Part shown: one piece after another, positions 20,945 through 26,745 of the stretch
How positions within the stretch are numbered: the stretch's first letter is position 1
How the letters are laid out: each line of letters begins with the position of its first letter
Source of the DNA: Sphingobacteriia bacterium
Lineage (GTDB): Bacteria; Bacteroidota; Bacteroidia; B-17B0; Aurantibacillaceae
Direction of reading: 5' to 3'
DNA: 39,857 nt
NCBI GenBank assembly: GCA_009927275.1
Contig: RFNG01000152.1
Location: forward strand, 1 to 39,857
Notes under the pieces: model-generated
What the model was told of the DNA's origin: nothing
The model's input: the letters and a program-made list of their open reading frames with translations, nothing else
Databases searched by the model: none
Position numbers and translations under genes: made by a program

Positions 20945-22234
20945 ATGGCCATAAACGTATTACTATTAGGATCGGGCGGCAGAGAACATGCGCTGGCATG
21001 GAAATTAGCCCAAAGCAAACATCTTGATCAATTATTTATAGCACCTGGAAATCCAGGAACTGCGGCGTGCGGAACAAATGTAAATTTAAATGTAAATGAT
21101 TTTGAAAGCATTCGGGATTTTGTGTGGACCCAAAATATACAAATGGTGGTTGTGGGTCCAGAAGAGCCCTTGGTAAATGGAATTTGGGATTTTTTTAAGG
21201 CGGATCCGGTATTAGCATCTATTCCGGTAATTGGTCCTTCTCAGGCAGGCGCTCAGCTTGAGGGAAGTAAAGCGTTTAGCAAGGCGTTTATGTCGAGACA
21301 TAATATTCCAACCGCCCGCTATGCCGAATTTGGAGCCCATGAGCTGGAGGCTGCTAAAGCTTGGATTGCGCAAATGCCTCCTCCCTATGTGTTAAAAGCC
21401 GATGGATTAGCTGCCGGCAAAGGCGTTATTATTACCTCGGATCAAGATGAAGCCTTTAAAAATTTAAATGCTATGCTCAATGGATCGGCATTTGGAAAAG
21501 CGGGCCAACGTCTGGTAATAGAATCATTTTTAAAAGGTATTGAAGTTTCTATGTTTGTACTTACCGACGGCAGCTCTTATATAATTTTGCCTGAAGCCAA
21601 AGATTACAAGCGCATTGGTAATGGTGATACAGGATTAAACACCGGCGGAATGGGAGCTGTAAGTCCAGTGCCATTTGTAGACGATACGTTTACGCAAAAG
21701 GTAAAAACACAAATAATTGAGCCCGTGTTAAAAGGTTTAAAATCTGAGTCTATTGCGTATCAGGGTTTTTTATTTATTGGATTAATGAATTGTAACGGAG
21801 ATCCTTATGTTATTGAGTTTAACTGCAGAATGGGCGATCCGGAAACGGAGGTTGTAATTCCCAGAATTGAATCCGATTTGCTGGATGTTTTTATTGCATT
21901 AAGCAAAACGGCATTACACACCGTAGCATTAAAAGTTACTCCCCGAAGTGCTATAAGTTTAGTAATGGTGAGTGGTGGATATCCCGAATCGTATCTTACC
22001 GGTAAAGCCATTACAATAGATTACACAGCTACTGATATGTTATTATTTCATGCTGGCACAACAATTCAAGACCAGCAATTGCTTACGCGTGGCGGAAGGG
22101 TTTTTGCTTTAACAGCATTTGGGGATACGTTAACAGAGGCCCAAAAAAAAGTTTACAGTCACAGCGTGGGTGTACAATATGAGGGTAAATACCAGCGTTC
22201 CGACATCGGTGATGATTTGTTGCAATATGCGTAA
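20945..22234 (+). CDS. purD: Phosphoribosylamine--glycine ligase (GAR synthetase)
   Basis: A 429-residue enzyme of standard length that joins glycine to 5-phosphoribosylamine with ATP, the second step of purine synthesis, in the cytoplasm. Visible are the N-domain LLLGSGGREHALAWKL and APGNPGT, the ATP-grasp region (VLKADGLAAGKGVII, GDTGLNTGGMGAVSPVPF) and the PurD signature NCRMGDPETEVVIPRI. The gene begins directly after the small secreted protein and its last eight bases overlap the ccmB start, so purD is head of the long purD-ccm-kdsC-maf run. No other pur gene is in the window. Confidence 0.97.
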   Translation: MAINVLLLGSGGREHALAWKLAQSKHLDQLFIAPGNPGTAACGTNVNLNVNDFESIRDFVWTQNIQMVVVGPEEPLVNGIWDFFKADPVLASIPVIGPSQAGAQLEGSKAFSKAFMSRHNIPTARYAEFGAHELEAAKAWIAQMPPPYVLKADGLAAGKGVIITSDQDEAFKNLNAMLNGSAFGKAGQRLVIESFLKGIEVSMFVLTDGSSYIILPEAKDYKRIGNGDTGLNTGGMGAVSPVPFVDDTFTQKVKTQIIEPVLKGLKSESIAYQGFLFIGLMNCNGDPYVIEFNCRMGDPETEVVIPRIESDLLDVFIALSKTALHTVALKVTPRSAISLVMVSGGYPESYLTGKAITIDYTATDMLLFHAGTTIQDQQLLTRGGRVFALTAFGDTLTEAQKKVYSHSVGVQYEGKYQRSDIGDDLLQYA

Positions 22235-22886
22235 CCTTAGTCATATTTTATATCGAGATTTTCGTCAGGAATGGCGGCAGTCAGCAATATGGTTGTCTGT
22301 AGTTTTGTTTATGGTTGGCTCAGTTTATATTACCTCTCTGTGTTTTAATGCTAAAATGGATAAGCCCAGCTGGAATGCAGTGTTTTGGATAATGTTGTTA
22401 TTTACGTCGCTTAGTTTGTCGGTTCGAAGTTTAAATGCCAGCAGTCAAGGCTATGCTTTGTATCAGTTTTTACTTTTTAACCCTATAGATTTTATAATTG
22501 CCCGATGGTTATTTCAGGTTATTTTAGCATTGGTACTTAATGTATTAACGGTATTAGTGTATGGATGGTTTATGGGATTTTCAGTACAACGTCCGGCACT
22601 TTTTTTAAGCATAACGGTTTTAAATACGCTGGCTGCTGCTTCGGTTCTGGTTTTTACGAATGCCCTTACTTCGTATGTTTCTGCGGGGTTTTCGCTTTTA
22701 AGTATTTTAAGCATCCCGTTACTTATACCCGTGTACAGCATTTCCGTAAAACTGGGAAAACAAGCAATGGATGGTATTGAAAATGCAGCATTTAGATGGG
22801 ATTTAATGGGGATTTTAAGTGCTGTGTTTTTAATCAGTTTTGGACTTCTCATCCTATTATTTCCGTATCTTTGGCGCAGCAGATAA
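22227..22886 (+). CDS. ccmB: Heme exporter protein CcmB
   Basis: A 219-residue inner-membrane protein with six hydrophobic helices. I start it at ATG 22227, inside the last codons of purD; an in-frame TTG at 22170 would add 19 residues entirely overlapping purD and is not credible. RDFRQEWRQ near the N-terminus and LFTSLSLSVRSL fit CcmB, the permease half of the CcmAB ABC transporter that works on holo-CcmE during cytochrome c maturation. The ATPase gene ccmA is not adjacent, as is common in Bacteroidota. ccmC follows after 44 bases. Confidence 0.85.
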   Translation: MRNLSHILYRDFRQEWRQSAIWLSVVLFMVGSVYITSLCFNAKMDKPSWNAVFWIMLLFTSLSLSVRSLNASSQGYALYQFLLFNPIDFIIARWLFQVILALVLNVLTVLVYGWFMGFSVQRPALFLSITVLNTLAAASVLVFTNALTSYVSAGFSLLSILSIPLLIPVYSISVKLGKQAMDGIENAAFRWDLMGILSAVFLISFGLLILLFPYLWRSR

Positions 22887-22930
22887 GTTTATTAAAAACT
22901 AAACTTAAAAACACGTGAATTATAATTTAC

Positions 22931-23602
22931 ATGCAACGTTCTTGGTATAAAGTAACAGTAGTAGTATTATTGTTATACAGTTGTATTGCGGGGTTATGGA
23001 TGCCGGTACCGCGGTTGCCAATATTAAATGAAACAATACGAAATGTTTATTTTCATGTACCCGTGTGGTTTGGTTTAATTGTAATGTGTGCATATTCTGC
23101 ATACGGGGCCCTACGGTATTTAAAAAACGCCTCAGCCAAATGGGACCAGGTATCTCATACCGCTGCACAAACAGCCATGTTTTTAAGTGTTCCAGGCATA
23201 TTAACAGGATCCATATGGGCAAAATTTACGTGGGGTACCTGGTGGACGTTTCAAGATCCAAAATTAAACGGTGTTGCATTGAGTATTTTAATTTATGGGG
23301 CTTATTTTATATTGCGTTCTGCGGCACACGAACCGCACAAAAAAGCGCAGCTTTCGGCGGTATATAATATTTTTGCATTTGTTATGCTTATTTTATTTCT
23401 GCTTGTTCTGCCGCGGTTAACAGCTTCATTGCATCCAGGTAATGGGGGTAATCCGGCATTTAGTAAATACGATTTGGATAATGGCATGCGCCTTATTTTT
23501 TATCCTGCCGTATTAGCATGGATTGGCTTAAGTTTTTGGCTTTTTGAACTTCAATACCGGTATCAACGTTTAAAAGAGTTATACAATCATGAAAACCATT
23601 AA
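22931..23602 (+). CDS. ccmC: Cytochrome c maturation protein CcmC (heme handling)
   Basis: A 223-residue protein with six helices of the CcmC/CcsA (WWD) family, which loads haem onto CcmE at the outer face of the inner membrane. Two conserved His contexts are present: RNVYFHVPVWFG (first axial His) and SLHPGNGGNP (second). The tryptophan-rich loop reads WGTWWTFQDPKLNG; the classical WWxWD is thus altered at the third Trp. Length fits the family. The last 14 bases overlap the ccmD-like gene. Confidence 0.9.
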   Translation: MQRSWYKVTVVVLLLYSCIAGLWMPVPRLPILNETIRNVYFHVPVWFGLIVMCAYSAYGALRYLKNASAKWDQVSHTAAQTAMFLSVPGILTGSIWAKFTWGTWWTFQDPKLNGVALSILIYGAYFILRSAAHEPHKKAQLSAVYNIFAFVMLILFLLVLPRLTASLHPGNGGNPAFSKYDLDNGMRLIFYPAVLAWIGLSFWLFELQYRYQRLKELYNHENH

Positions 23603-23810
23603 AACATTTATTTTTTTAAGTACATTGTTTTGTTCTGGCCTTAGCGCACAGGTTATAAATACAGACGTTGAAATGGCTGATCGCTTGCGTGCTGATGGAA
23701 AATGGGGTGTTGTTGTAGCCGTTATAGCATTGCTGCTTTTTTCACTTTGTATATGGTTAATACGATTAGATCGTAAACTAACAAAACTTGAAAATAAACG
23801 CAATGACTAA
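23589..23810 (+). CDS. ccmD: CcmD-family small membrane protein
   Basis: A 73-residue protein: a signal-like N-terminus (ending LSAQ), then ADRLRADGKWGVVVAVIALL leading into one membrane helix and the charged tail RLDRKLTKLENKRND. This pattern (AD..R..GK, helix, LDRKL.KLE) is the Bacteroidota CcmD-like family. CcmD helps release holo-CcmE from the CcmABC complex. The N-terminal hydrophobic stretch is extra compared with proteobacterial CcmD. It overlaps ccmC by 14 bases and ccmE by eight, which strongly supports its being translated. Confidence 0.8.
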   Translation: MKTIKTFIFLSTLFCSGLSAQVINTDVEMADRLRADGKWGVVVAVIALLLFSLCIWLIRLDRKLTKLENKRND

Positions 23811-24207
23811 ATCAAAAGCATTTGCATTACTTGCAATTTTAGTAGGAATTTCGGCAATAGGTTTTCAGCTTTGGAAAAGTATTGAAGCCCCTTCGAGTGG
23901 ATCATTGGGCTATGCCAATTTTACTCAGGCTGCACTTCAGCCCGGAAAAGAATTTCATGTTGTAGGTACTTGTGATAGAAAACGTCCTATGCTTTATAAT
24001 CCTAAAGTTAACCCGGATATATTCTCTTTTTTTCTTACAGATCAAAATGGAACCCAACGCCAAGTTAATTTGCATAAAAGCAAGCCGCAGGATTTTGATA
24101 AAAGCGAACAAATAGTTTTAATAGGAACCATACAGGATTCTGTTTTTGAAGCCAGTGATATTTTATTAAAATGCCCAAGCAAGTATAATGAAACTACTTC
24201 ACGTTAA
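23803..24207 (+). CDS. ccmE: Cytochrome c maturation protein CcmE, CxxxY variant
   Basis: A 134-residue haem chaperone from ATG 23803 (an upstream TTG at 23788 would add five residues inside ccmD). One N-terminal membrane helix (residues 5-22) precedes the OB-fold domain (HVVGTCDRKRPMLYNP; SFFLTDQNGTQRQVNLHK; VLIGTIQDSVFEASDILLK). In classical CcmE haem is bound covalently to His in HxxxY; here the position is Cys124 in CPSKY, giving Cys-x3-Tyr128. That replacement is known from the variant 'system I*' of archaea and some Desulfovibrio, where CcmG and CcmH are also missing. The stop is three bases before ccmF. Confidence 0.9.
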   Translation: MTKSKAFALLAILVGISAIGFQLWKSIEAPSSGSLGYANFTQAALQPGKEFHVVGTCDRKRPMLYNPKVNPDIFSFFLTDQNGTQRQVNLHKSKPQDFDKSEQIVLIGTIQDSVFEASDILLKCPSKYNETTSR

Positions 24208-24210
24208 ACC

Positions 24211-26745
24211 ATGATACCATACCGGGGAGAGCATATTTGGGCCGGACAGTGGGGGCATATGTTAGTAATTTTGAGTTTTGTTTCGGCTTTTTGTTTAGCC
24301 CTACTTTGTGTTGCTAAAACAAAATTTAATTTAAAACACTGGATTACAACAGGTGTTATCATTCATGCTATTTCGGTTGCTGCCGTTGCCGGTTTGCTCA
24401 TTTTTATGTTGTTGCAACATTTTTATGAGTATCAATATGTATGGCAGCACAGCAATTCAGAAATGGACATGCGTTATATTTTTTCATGTTTGTGGGAGGG
24501 GCAGGAAGGAAGTTTTTTATTGTGGCTTTTTTGGAATTCCTTGTTATGTATAGGTGTTTGGTATCAGTTACGTAACAGCACCCTGTTAAAGCCGGTTTTA
24601 AGTATTTTGTTTTTAATTCAGGCATTTATTGCCAGTATGTTGCTGGGCGTTTATGTTTTGGATTATAAAATTGGTAGTAGTCCGTTTTTATTATTGCGAG
24701 AACATTCGGATTTTATGCATTTACCTTTTGTAAAATCGCCTGAGTATTTAAATCGTTTAGATGGCAGAGGCCTTAATCCATTATTAATGAATGCATGGAT
24801 GACTATTCATCCGCCCACCTTGTTTTTGGGATTTGCATTAACCGGTATTCCATTTGCTTTTGCCCTTTCAGGATTATGGCAGTCTTCAAAACCCTCAATG
24901 TGGGCGCCTGCAGCATACCCTTGGGCTATTGCCGCTATGGCCGTATTAGGAATCGGAATCTTAATGGGAGGTGCCTGGGCATATGAAGCATTAAGTTTTG
25001 GAGGATTTTGGGCCTGGGATCCAGTAGAAAATTCATCACTTGTACCCTGGCTTTTAATGGTTGCCGGAACACACGCTATATTGTTAAACCTCCGAAAAAA
25101 GGGGTCAAACGCAAGCACCTACATTTCTACCATTCTTCCTTTTTTAACGGTTTTATATTCTACTTTTTTAACCCGCAGCGGTATATTGGGTAATGCCTCT
25201 GTACATGCTTTTACAGACTTGGGTATGACGGGACAATTATTAATTTACCTCATTACATTTGTGTATTTAGCTGTTGCTCCAGTAATATCCAATTCTATAG
25301 CACGTGCCGCATATTTGGTTTTAAGTCCATTAGTATTAATTATGGCTGCTGTATATCAGCATATTCCCTGGGGATTTTATATATGGATAAGTTATACGCT
25401 TATACATTTATTCATTTTGGTTTATTCATGGTTTATAGCATCTGAAAACCATTTATTTCATTCACAACGTTCCAGTTTTATGCGTATGGGAATACTTTGG
25501 ATACTGTTAACCAGTGCTATGATCCTGTTTTTTACATCTGTTCCGGTAATTAATACATTGTTTTCAAAACATTATGCGCCGCCTTCAATTGATACATATA
25601 ACCAGTGGATGACACCAATGGTTATTTTAATTTTATTTTTAATGACTTGGGCGCATCAATTAACATATTCCAAAAACTACGCTCTTCAAGTTTTATATAA
25701 AATACGATGGTGGTCTTTGCTGGCATTGGCAATTGCTATTTGTATTTGTGTACCGTTTTATATTTTAAATCCACCCAAGGGCTATTATAGCATATGGTAT
25801 TGGCAACTGGGCTTGTGTGTTTTGGTATTGATTTGTATTTGGGGTTTGTTTTTACATCTTCGTAACATACTTCGCATAAAAGCATCGGTTTGGATTGAAA
25901 CGGGTGGAGCATTAGCACATATCGGATTTATTTTAGTAATACTTGGTGCAGTAATGTCAACTTCAAAAAAAACAAATTTAACATCGCGTCCACAGGCAGA
26001 AATTCCCGGCATAAAAACCAATGCCGGAAGTATTATGTTAACCCGTGGTGATACGGTTCAATTGGGTCCCTATTGGGTTACCTATGCACAAAAAAAACGT
26101 GTTGGAATGGATGTGTTTTTTACAATACAGTATTTTCATAAAACGGCCTCTCAGCAATTTATCCCGGCGTTTACATTGCAGCCTAAAGTACAGGACAATC
26201 CCCGCATGGGTAAGGCCGCCGATCCGGATACTAAACATTTTTTAAGCCATGATGTATATACGCATGTTGCATATGCCGATTTAACCGATCAAACACAAGC
26301 GCAGGGTTATTCACAACCAGTAAACATGCTTGGCCACATTGGAGATACAATTTCATTGCGACAATACTTATTAATTTTAGACTCCATACGTACCCAGATT
26401 GGTAATGCGGATTCTTCCATGCGTGTAACATTGGTACTTCGTGGCATAGATGTTAAAGGCTCAGAATTTATGGCCTATCCAACGTTGGAAATTAAAAACC
26501 GCATGCTTATACCAAAACCTTACGAAATTAAAGACAAAGGTTTAAAATTGGTTTTTTGGAATATAAAACCCGAAGCGCAGTCCTTTGAAATAACTGTACA
26601 AGAAAATGCTGCATTGCAAAATGACTTTATTGTTATGGAAGCCTATGCGTTTCCGTTTATAAATATTCTTTGGATTGGTGTAATGGTGATGGCACTGGGT
26701 ACTTTTATGACCTTGTTTAAATATATTTTTAAATCTTCCAGCTGA
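24211..26745 (+). CDS. ccmF: Heme lyase component CcmF
   Basis: An 844-residue inner-membrane protein, longer than proteobacterial CcmF (~650) because of an extended C-terminal part. Conserved blocks: WEGQEGSFLLW (95-105), GRGLNPLLMNAWMTIHPP with His200, and the WWD-type loop GGFWAWDPVENSSLVPW (264-280). Residues ~600-800 form a periplasmic beta domain before the last helix. CcmF takes haem from CcmE and attaches it to the CxxCH of apocytochromes c. Normally it works with CcmH, which is not encoded here. Fifth ccm gene in a row; the next gene starts five bases after its stop. Confidence 0.93.
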   Translation: MIPYRGEHIWAGQWGHMLVILSFVSAFCLALLCVAKTKFNLKHWITTGVIIHAISVAAVAGLLIFMLLQHFYEYQYVWQHSNSEMDMRYIFSCLWEGQEGSFLLWLFWNSLLCIGVWYQLRNSTLLKPVLSILFLIQAFIASMLLGVYVLDYKIGSSPFLLLREHSDFMHLPFVKSPEYLNRLDGRGLNPLLMNAWMTIHPPTLFLGFALTGIPFAFALSGLWQSSKPSMWAPAAYPWAIAAMAVLGIGILMGGAWAYEALSFGGFWAWDPVENSSLVPWLLMVAGTHAILLNLRKKGSNASTYISTILPFLTVLYSTFLTRSGILGNASVHAFTDLGMTGQLLIYLITFVYLAVAPVISNSIARAAYLVLSPLVLIMAAVYQHIPWGFYIWISYTLIHLFILVYSWFIASENHLFHSQRSSFMRMGILWILLTSAMILFFTSVPVINTLFSKHYAPPSIDTYNQWMTPMVILILFLMTWAHQLTYSKNYALQVLYKIRWWSLLALAIAICICVPFYILNPPKGYYSIWYWQLGLCVLVLICIWGLFLHLRNILRIKASVWIETGGALAHIGFILVILGAVMSTSKKTNLTSRPQAEIPGIKTNAGSIMLTRGDTVQLGPYWVTYAQKKRVGMDVFFTIQYFHKTASQQFIPAFTLQPKVQDNPRMGKAADPDTKHFLSHDVYTHVAYADLTDQTQAQGYSQPVNMLGHIGDTISLRQYLLILDSIRTQIGNADSSMRVTLVLRGIDVKGSEFMAYPTLEIKNRMLIPKPYEIKDKGLKLVFWNIKPEAQSFEITVQENAALQNDFIVMEAYAFPFINILWIGVMVMALGTFMTLFKYIFKSSS

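Follow-up and report, generated by a model that had tools for sequence, protein, structure and literature searches.

A probable System I*-like cytochrome c maturation locus with a cysteine-type CcmE in a Bacteroidota bacterium and its relatives

Introduction

How might cytochromes c be matured by a set of Ccm proteins whose haem chaperone, CcmE, carries a cysteine in the place of the classical histidine, and beside which no CcmH is found? The question is raised by a gene cluster in the window analysed here, the whole 39,857-nucleotide stretch of contig RFNG01000152.1 from a Sphingobacteriia bacterium of the phylum Bacteroidota. System II, too, is not known to have a CcmH.

Passages of a 2011 review (PMC3601427) report Cys-type CcmE in delta-proteobacteria, Chloroflexi and Firmicutes as well, give CPSKY as its commonest form, and state that CcmH is kept in about a third of Cys-type bacteria. 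A preliminary description of the locus had likened it to the variant System I*; the likeness stands as regards a Cys-type CcmE and the absence of CcmH, but the range given for the variant, archaea and some Desulfovibrio, is too narrow when set against that review. Covalent attachment of haem to the CcmE cysteine is reported for System I* relatives, CcmABCEF is reported to be sufficient in Methanosarcina acetivorans, and the title of a 2022 Methanosarcina study calls CcmH-less machinery archaea-specific. The portions of the literature drawn on here describe System I* for other groups and not for Bacteroidota.

Results

Analysis of open reading frames and Pfam families bore out the contiguity of ccmB-C-D-E-F claimed in the preliminary description, with all five genes lying head to tail on the + strand at 22227-26745:

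22227..22886, + strand: ccmB, ATG start, membrane subunit of the haem ABC exporter (Pfam CcmB)
22931..23602, + strand: ccmC, haem-handling WWD protein (Cytochrom_C_asm, 59.6 bits, cut-off 29.9)
23589..23810, + strand: ccmD, 73 residues, CcmD_alt family (PF20077, 60.4 bits, cut-off 23.5)
23803..24207, + strand: ccmE, 134 residues, periplasmic haem chaperone of the Cys type (Pfam CcmE, 39.4 bits, cut-off 24.6)
24211..26745, + strand: ccmF, 844 residues, as first described; cytochrome c synthase (Cytochrom_C_asm, 77.8 bits; CcmF_C, 33.1 bits, cut-off 28.7)

The Pfam cut-offs are exceeded by the homologues of CcmB, CcmC, CcmE and CcmF alike, as System I (Ccm) calls for. For the ccmB product the Pfam score was 32.9 bits against a cut-off of 24.9, with the reading frame run from 22233, while the NCBIfam ccmB model returned only E 0.023; the NCBIfam ccmC model matched the ccmC product at E 4.4e-15, under its own cut-off. 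Two histidines of CcmC match those of E. coli CcmC in the alignment, and its WWD core reads WWTFQDPKLN. Neither ccmA nor ccmG, ccmH or ccmI was recognised among the neighbouring open reading frames listed, in agreement with the preliminary description. From its ATG, ccmB shares 8 bases with the end of purD.

The feature that sets this CcmE apart lies near its C-terminus:

24172..24186, + strand: CPSKY motif, CcmE residues 124-128 (alignments)

In alignment with the E. coli protein, HDENY falls on CPSKY and Cys124 takes the place of His130, confirming that CPSKY stands where the classical CcmE has HxxxY. A second CcmE, with HxxxY, was sought genome-wide, and a single CcmE was found. A profile of 25 CcmE sequences matches PDB entries 8ce8, 1sr3, 2kct and 1j6q and brings the KCP of D. 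vulgaris 2kct into line with the motif; phmmer with the single CcmE as query matched no CcmE structure.

The source assembly is 99.3% complete and consists of 165 contigs. Across it, CcmH gave no match with either of two profiles, Pfam and one of the diverged type, which extends the absence from the neighbourhood to the genome. Searches with the Pfam ResB model, which also misses a Bacteroides control, gave no match, and Cytochrom_C_asm, which does detect the Bacteroides control, matched only ccmC and ccmF, leaving no separate CcsA. By these models the genome shows neither the ResB/CcsB with CcsA of System II nor the CcmH with CcmF of classical System I. Eleven proteins match the CcmG (dsbE) model, all under its cut-off (best 71 against 123.15 bits); the best, G000:C93:9286-9666, has 177 residues and a CTPC motif, and two short matches that were checked are AhpC-TSA/Redoxin family proteins. 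With no CcmH and only sub-cut-off matches for CcmG, the ccmGH pair that might have lain elsewhere is absent by these models. DsbD and redoxin-family proteins occur in the genome, as do three Cytochrome_CBB3 matches over cut-off, one of them within a protein bearing six CXXCH motifs, showing that c-type cytochromes exist to be matured.

The preliminary description had ccmA missing from the neighbourhood as well. This holds locally, but genome-wide there is a probable unlinked candidate, an ATPase encoded where contig C10 begins: with our own CcmA profile it scores 154.8 bits, the best of 16 open reading frames in 15 loci compared, and it fits best to ATPases that adjoin ccmB in relatives. Its two top NCBIfam families are CcmA, but at 107 bits against a cut-off of 131.6, and a third, an ABC-F model, is almost equal at 102.0 bits. 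Another ATPase of the same genome reaches 146.2 bits with our profile, and the comparison covers 15 of the 35 CcmA-model matches in the genome. On sequence evidence, ccmA is probably kept but unlinked, in the form of the C10 candidate.

CcmF combines a conserved core with an enlarged periplasmic segment:

25000..25032, + strand: WWD core GGFWAWDPVEN, CcmF residues 264-274 (alignment)
25285..25464, + strand: two extra predicted helices, CcmF 359-418, shared by 10 of 67 sequences (the window's among them)
26008..26301, + strand: predicted periplasmic beta domain 1, CcmF 600-697 (AF2 models; sequence likeness to the E. coli CcmF domain)
26302..26655, + strand: predicted periplasmic beta domain 2, CcmF 698-815 (fold resembling those of the 6zmq domain and of the beta cap in CcsBA)

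Beside the WWD core, all four histidines are present, H200, H288, H332 and H570 aligning with E. coli H173, H261, H303 and H491, whose numbers and roles we take to be those generally assigned. A profile of 67 CcmF sequences (from 79, window included; 5 dropped at 85% identity or more and 7 by hand, with the domain alignment differing by one member) matches 6zmq at E 2.9e-60, and the CcmF model superimposes on 6zmq with Z 32.4 over 514 aligned residues (rmsd 3.2). The segment from H570 to P815 spans 245 residues against 117 in E. coli, about twice the length. Its two-beta-domain form, predicted from one protein's model, is new here. Which half corresponds to the classical beta domain depends on the method, and the two answers disagree: sequence favours half 1 (hhalign of the E. 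coli domain, score 24.61, probability 38%, against 14.43 for half 2, neither with shuffles), whereas fold favours half 2 by comparison with the Thermus structure. In VIA-align, beta domain 2 gives Z 11.7 with 6zmq, 9.4 with CcsBA (7s9y), 7.8 with closed CcsBA (7s9z) and 7.7 with an unrelated S-layer domain; since the last two are nearly equal, only 6zmq and 7s9y stand clear. Foldseek alone returned nothing below 0.001 for the beta domain (6zmq at rank 40, E 0.39, probability 0.94), the beta-domain profile matched no PDB sequence up to E 10, and a viral structure library gave no match to CcmF below 0.001. Sequence gives no support to a tandem duplication of the beta domains, the score of half 1 against half 2 (11.07) falling within those of 30 column-shuffled profiles (top 17.11).

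Is this locus an isolated case? CcmE is present in 264 of 392 sampled Bacteroidota genomes, about two thirds. Its motif was read in 104 of these (the 30 best-scoring, others chosen mainly as at least one per family among those listed, 30 low scorers or members of uncovered families, and the window), and all 104 are Cys-type: 103 with CPSKY and one with CPSRY. Leaving the window aside, one or other form occurs in 103 of the 103 further genomes. The profile used for the survey also picks up a CcmE of the His type, that of E. coli, at 36.5 bits (E 6e-9). At the level of loci, Cys-type CcmE was found in all 73 of the 80 named loci that have CcmE, counting only the best CcmE per locus, as extra CcmE-like reading frames without the motif exist; the other seven (L147, L170, L175, L182, L198, L199 and L206) were left out, no CcmE being recognised beside CcmF. 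In L199 and L206 CcmF begins at a contig end, and in L137 an HPLRF upstream is a chance occurrence, the CcmE ending in CPSKY.

As for CcmH, the Pfam model exceeded its cut-off in 5 of 392 genomes, in odd proteins on contigs other than that of ccmE, and the diverged-type profile found clear CcmH-like domains in 13 of 392, which counts against a CcmH-less reading; with both, CcmH was undetected in at least 379. The comparison of CcmE across Bacteroidota upholds the Cys type but not the isolated case that the preliminary description implied, as this type is the rule in the sampled phylum. For relatives in the phylum, a cut-down Ccm machine with a Cys haem carrier seems, from these comparisons, to be the norm. 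We reject local gene loss in one organism, because the same pattern recurs throughout the sample.

With our own profiles, 22 of the 80 named loci and 10 of the 55 unnamed ones show the order BCDEF; CDEF accounts for 8 and 15, respectively, and E and F alone together for 37 and 7. About half of the named loci have ccmB, C and D away from ccmE-F. In 17 of the 55 unnamed loci no CcmF of at least 400 residues was recognised, and CcmF counts cover only sequences that our profile recognises. The recurrence of the BCDEF and CDEF orders indicates that the arrangement is not due to chance, though it is often split.

Discussion

We consider it highly probable that the locus encodes a working System I*-type machinery for cytochrome c maturation, and that this machinery is widespread among Bacteroidota. 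In the mechanism that we infer for this organism, in its every step and including the identity of CcmA, the reductants and the role of the beta domains, CcmB with the unlinked CcmA, CcmC and the alternative CcmD would pass haem to CcmE, which would hold it covalently at Cys124. CcmF would then receive the haem and join it to the CXXCH of the apocytochrome without CcmH. The thiols would probably be kept reduced by DsbD and TlpA/ResA-like thioredoxin-fold proteins rather than by a CcmGH pair, and the enlarged periplasmic segment of CcmF itself would probably guide the apocytochrome. Counting against this reading, the CcmF segment in locus L085 has only 122 residues, yet the CcmE there carries CPSKY.

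The Desulfovibrio System I* shares with the locus a Cys-type CcmE, with CPSKY as the commonest form, the lack of CcmH and the presence of CcmD; CcmI is helpful there, whereas none was seen beside the locus here, and the PF20077 CcmD and long CcmF segment are stated for this locus alone. M. acetivorans CcmABCEF likewise has a CxxxY CcmE and no CcmH, but CcmD is kept here and CcmF is one chain rather than two. With the classical E. coli CcmABCDEFGH the locus shares the order B, C, D, E, F, the four CcmF histidines and the CcmE family; it differs in the cysteine for His130, the unfound CcmH and the longer CcmF segment.

It is possible, although we think it unlikely, that the system is System I*-like and that an unrecognised Bacteroidota-specific protein, such as a TlpA/ResA-like thioredoxin, replaces CcmH as the partner of CcmF. 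CcmF itself was rejected as the source of the missing thiols, as no column has cysteine at 30% or more in 39 CcmF sequences, so some thiol donor is needed, and the eleven dsbE-model matches, with the CTPC protein at their head, offer candidates. According to the part of the Methanosarcina work drawn on here, its authors likewise could not exclude an unknown helper. Against a replacement, a crude motif screen, its positive control not run, found no thioredoxin-like reading frame in the 80 named loci, and passages of the 2011 review report that the Desulfovibrio Ccm set functions in E. coli lacking CcmG and CcmH (PMC3601427).

It is very improbable that this is an ordinary System I with CcmG, CcmH and CcmI encoded at another site, falling in an assembly gap or diverged too far for recognition. 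The 165 contigs leave room for gaps, redoxin-family proteins with CXXC are present, and a few members of the phylum have CcmH-like proteins with changed motifs; however, two profiles failed to find CcmH in a 99.3% complete genome and in at least 379 of the 392 sampled, and the Cys-type CcmE speaks against this explanation. A function in haem export or some other process instead of cytochrome c maturation is scarcely credible for these genes, given that CcmF keeps its active-site residues, that no other synthase was found in the genome and that c-type cytochromes are present.

Returning to the System I* reading, if about two thirds of Bacteroidota genomes carry only Cys-type CcmE and no CcmH, the phylum could rank among the larger groups in which the variant occurs. 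Some of its members grow easily and lend themselves to genetic work, and both the cleavage of the thioether between haem and CcmE and the purpose of CcmH would then become open to ordinary genetics.

We hypothesize, further, that CcmF takes over the job of CcmH through its enlarged segment. A bolder and rather doubtful extension is a third workable maturation design, phylum-wide, in which the System I* Cys relay is combined with a two-beta-domain CcmF, one domain resembling the CcsB beta cap, that binds the apocytochrome itself without CcmH. If true, the enlarged-CcmF design would link Systems I and II functionally. Relative to the System II protein CcsBA, the genome has no ResB and the locus retains a CcmE relay; the likeness to Helicobacter hepaticus CcsBA (7s9y) lies in the CcmF core, with Z 20.1, and in beta domain 2, whose Z of 9.4 is with the CcsB part.

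The ccm locus and its CcmE

ORF reading of the window places five predicted cytochrome c maturation genes head to tail on one strand, ccmB, ccmC, ccmD, ccmE and ccmF, as the preliminary description had observed.

Predicted ccm genes of the window
22227-22886, +, ccmB; Pfam CcmB above cut-off
22931-23602, +, ccmC; Pfam Cytochrom_C_asm above cut-off
23589-23810, +, ccmD; Pfam CcmD_alt (PF20077) above cut-off
23803-24207, +, ccmE; Pfam CcmE above cut-off
24211-26745, +, ccmF; Pfam Cytochrom_C_asm and CcmF_C above cut-off

NCBIfam models for CcmB, CcmC, CcmE and CcmF/NrfE also match these proteins, but all below their cut-offs. The upstream neighbour of ccmB is an ORF at 20945-22234, read as a putative purD, and a DUF2520 protein follows ccmF. 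CcmE carries the C-terminal motif CPSKY, and on alignment its Cys124 falls opposite His130 of E. coli CcmE (HDENY). A profile of 25 Bacteroidota CcmE sequences, the window's among them, matched solved CcmE structures at E values of 1.7e-7 to 1.1e-5 (8ce8 and 1sr3 for E. coli CcmE; 2kct from D. vulgaris, whose own KCP aligns; and 1j6q), and also an unrelated chain, 9hcj, a Nup160, at 6.9e-7.

Distribution in the phylum

The locus had been presented as an isolated, reduced oddity, a view that the phylum does not bear out. CcmE is present in 264 of 392 genomes that are 90% complete or better, from a phylum taken to be Bacteroidota on the titles of the closest titled loci (Bacteroidetes, Bacteroidia, Flavobacteriales and similar). 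The motif in 103 phylum genomes besides that of the window is CPSKY in 102, CPSRY in one and His type in none. Since the CcmE profile used detects the His-type E. coli protein (36.5 bits), it stood a reasonable chance of revealing His types. CcmE was recognised beside CcmF in 73 of 80 loci found via CcmF and bearing taxon titles, with CPSKY in all 73; these titled loci and a second set of phylum loci may overlap in genomes, and their counts are kept separate. CcmH (PF03918) matches in 12 of the 392 genomes and exceeds the cut-off in five, each time on a contig other than that of ccmE; a profile from those five CcmH matched 14 genomes, 13 of them strongly, across three families, the window's genome not among them.

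This Ccm set looks like the ordinary machine of Bacteroidota, unremarked in print within the literature searched. Passages of PMC3601427 describe System I* as having a Cys-type CcmE, name delta-proteobacteria, Chloroflexi and Firmicutes as its groups, and report CPSKY in 25 of 36 bacterial cases and CcmH in about a third. No word starting 'bacteroid' occurs in excerpts of PMC3601427, PMC4429474 and PMC11868835, and among the matches listed from open-licence full-text literature no title or abstract start concerns Cys-type CcmE in Bacteroidota. A System I alignment takes in Cytophagia and Chitinophagia (PMC12077264), so System I in Bacteroidota was already known; excerpts of that paper make no mention of their CcmE type. 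A passage of PMC13170271 places 'bacteroides' under System II.

Several variants were seen. CcmF lacks a recognised adjoining CcmE in L170, L175 and L198 (assemblies titled Bacteroidetes and Bacteroidales), and L141 and L194, titled Salinisphaeraceae and Sphingomonadales, yet with Bacteroidota-type CcmF and CPSKY CcmE, are probably mislabelled records. CcmE-like ORFs without Cys or His motif lie at L071:6771-7130, L082:7632-8012, L086:7615-8040, L160:9102-9488 and L109:461-823, four of the five near a CPSKY CcmE and the last sharing its stretch with a CcmH-like protein. Proteins resembling CcmH, with F.C.CG.C...C.C motifs, occur at L106:9008-9814, L107:7844-8695, L110:9399-10220, L108:4720-5166 and L109:13866-14315; some hold two such domains, that of L106 has an additional N-terminal zinc ribbon, and L106, L107 and L110 each have a second CcmF at a distance of 4 to 6 kb. 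The WWD core of CcmC varies too. Among the 45 commonest motif patterns of 81 sequences, most titled loci (L127-L204) lack both its third Trp and its Arg, reading FTWG.[WF]W..D.K.N; many second-set loci outside the window's class retain W.WDPR. The window CcmC (22931-23602) reads WWTFQDPKLN, with one extra residue, as does L127.

The rest of the genome

The likening of the locus to System I* stands: CcmE is of the Cys type, and no CcmH was found genome-wide. In the 2.29 Mb assembly (99.3% complete, the window being contig 99 of 165), genome-wide searches found a single CcmE, and so no second copy of the HxxxY type sought; no CcmH, whether with the Pfam model or with a profile built on diverged CcmH-like domains; no ResB; and no Cytochrom_C_asm protein, CcsA-type included, beyond the CcmC and CcmF of the locus. 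With neither ResB nor a further Cytochrom_C_asm protein, the searches gave no sign of System II or of another synthase. One DsbD is present, and three Cytochrome_CBB3 domains exceed the cut-off, one within a protein bearing six CXXCH, so that the machine has substrates.

The reported absence of ccmA probably reflects an unlinked gene. None of 35 ATPase matches in the genome passed the CcmA cut-off. An ABC ATPase lies immediately upstream of ccmB in 10 of 60 second-set loci screened, and a profile of those ten, run on 15 loci retained from the 35 matches, gave its highest score, 154.8 bits, to L005 (contig C10, bases 2-652), followed by L008 with 146.2. L005 starts at the edge of its contig, with 217 residues in open frame and 203 if counted from the first plausible Met. 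It shares the SSG.KQRLK stretch, and its best NCBIfam families are two CcmA models (107 bits against 131.6, and 102.3 against 195), then an ABC-F model (102.0). L008 is longer, with a permease-like ORF read alongside. From these sequence comparisons, L005 is likely, though unproved, to be the CcmA of this organism.

An enlarged CcmF

The window CcmF retains the WWD core, and four of its His line up with E. coli H173, H261, H303 and H491; no conserved Cys column was found among 39 CcmF sequences. The H570-P815 segment of the window protein is 245 residues long, its E. coli counterpart 117. Of 39 phylum sequences including that of the window, 38 have 210 to 374 residues in this segment and one, L085, has 122; in all 67 sequences from titled loci and the window it has 246 to 327, counted inclusively. 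AlphaFold2 predicts the window segment as all beta and in two parts; pLDDT is 91.8 when the segment is modelled by itself and 89.6 for the entire protein. Structural comparison of the entire model gives Z 32.4 with Thermus CcmF (6zmq) and Z 20.1 with CcsBA (7s9y). Residues 701-801 match the 6zmq beta domain (Z 11.7, rmsd 2.2, 94 aligned) and CcsBA at Z 9.4 and 7.8, where an unrelated domain reaches 7.7. Contrary to this fold match, the E. coli beta domain fits the first part of the segment by sequence. What can safely be said is that the window CcmF is predicted to carry one more beta domain in its periplasmic part than the CcmF of E. coli and Thermus; length and alignment suggest a second beta domain in other phylum CcmF as well. 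A beta cap in CcsB and a beta structure in CcmF are noted in passages of PMC10663686.

Our best guess is that the enlarged CcmF may dispense with CcmH. The main alternative is that some thioredoxin would stand in for CcmH. The CcmG model has 11 matches in the genome, all under cut-off. Of these, two short proteins were checked, those ranked 1 and 4; both are AhpC-TSA/Redoxin proteins, with the motifs CTPC and CAPC, and we read them as TlpA/ResA-like. Elsewhere, a Desulfovibrio operon needs neither CcmG nor CcmH to function in E. coli (PMC3601427), and in Methanosarcina archaeal CcmABCEF is sufficient and the Cys of CxxxY in CcmE is required (PMC9084895); the latter title calls the machinery 'archaea-specific', and its authors leave room for an unknown helper.

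Residues 359-418 of the window CcmF (window 25285-25464) form two extra predicted helices, seen in 10 of the 67 sequences, window included.
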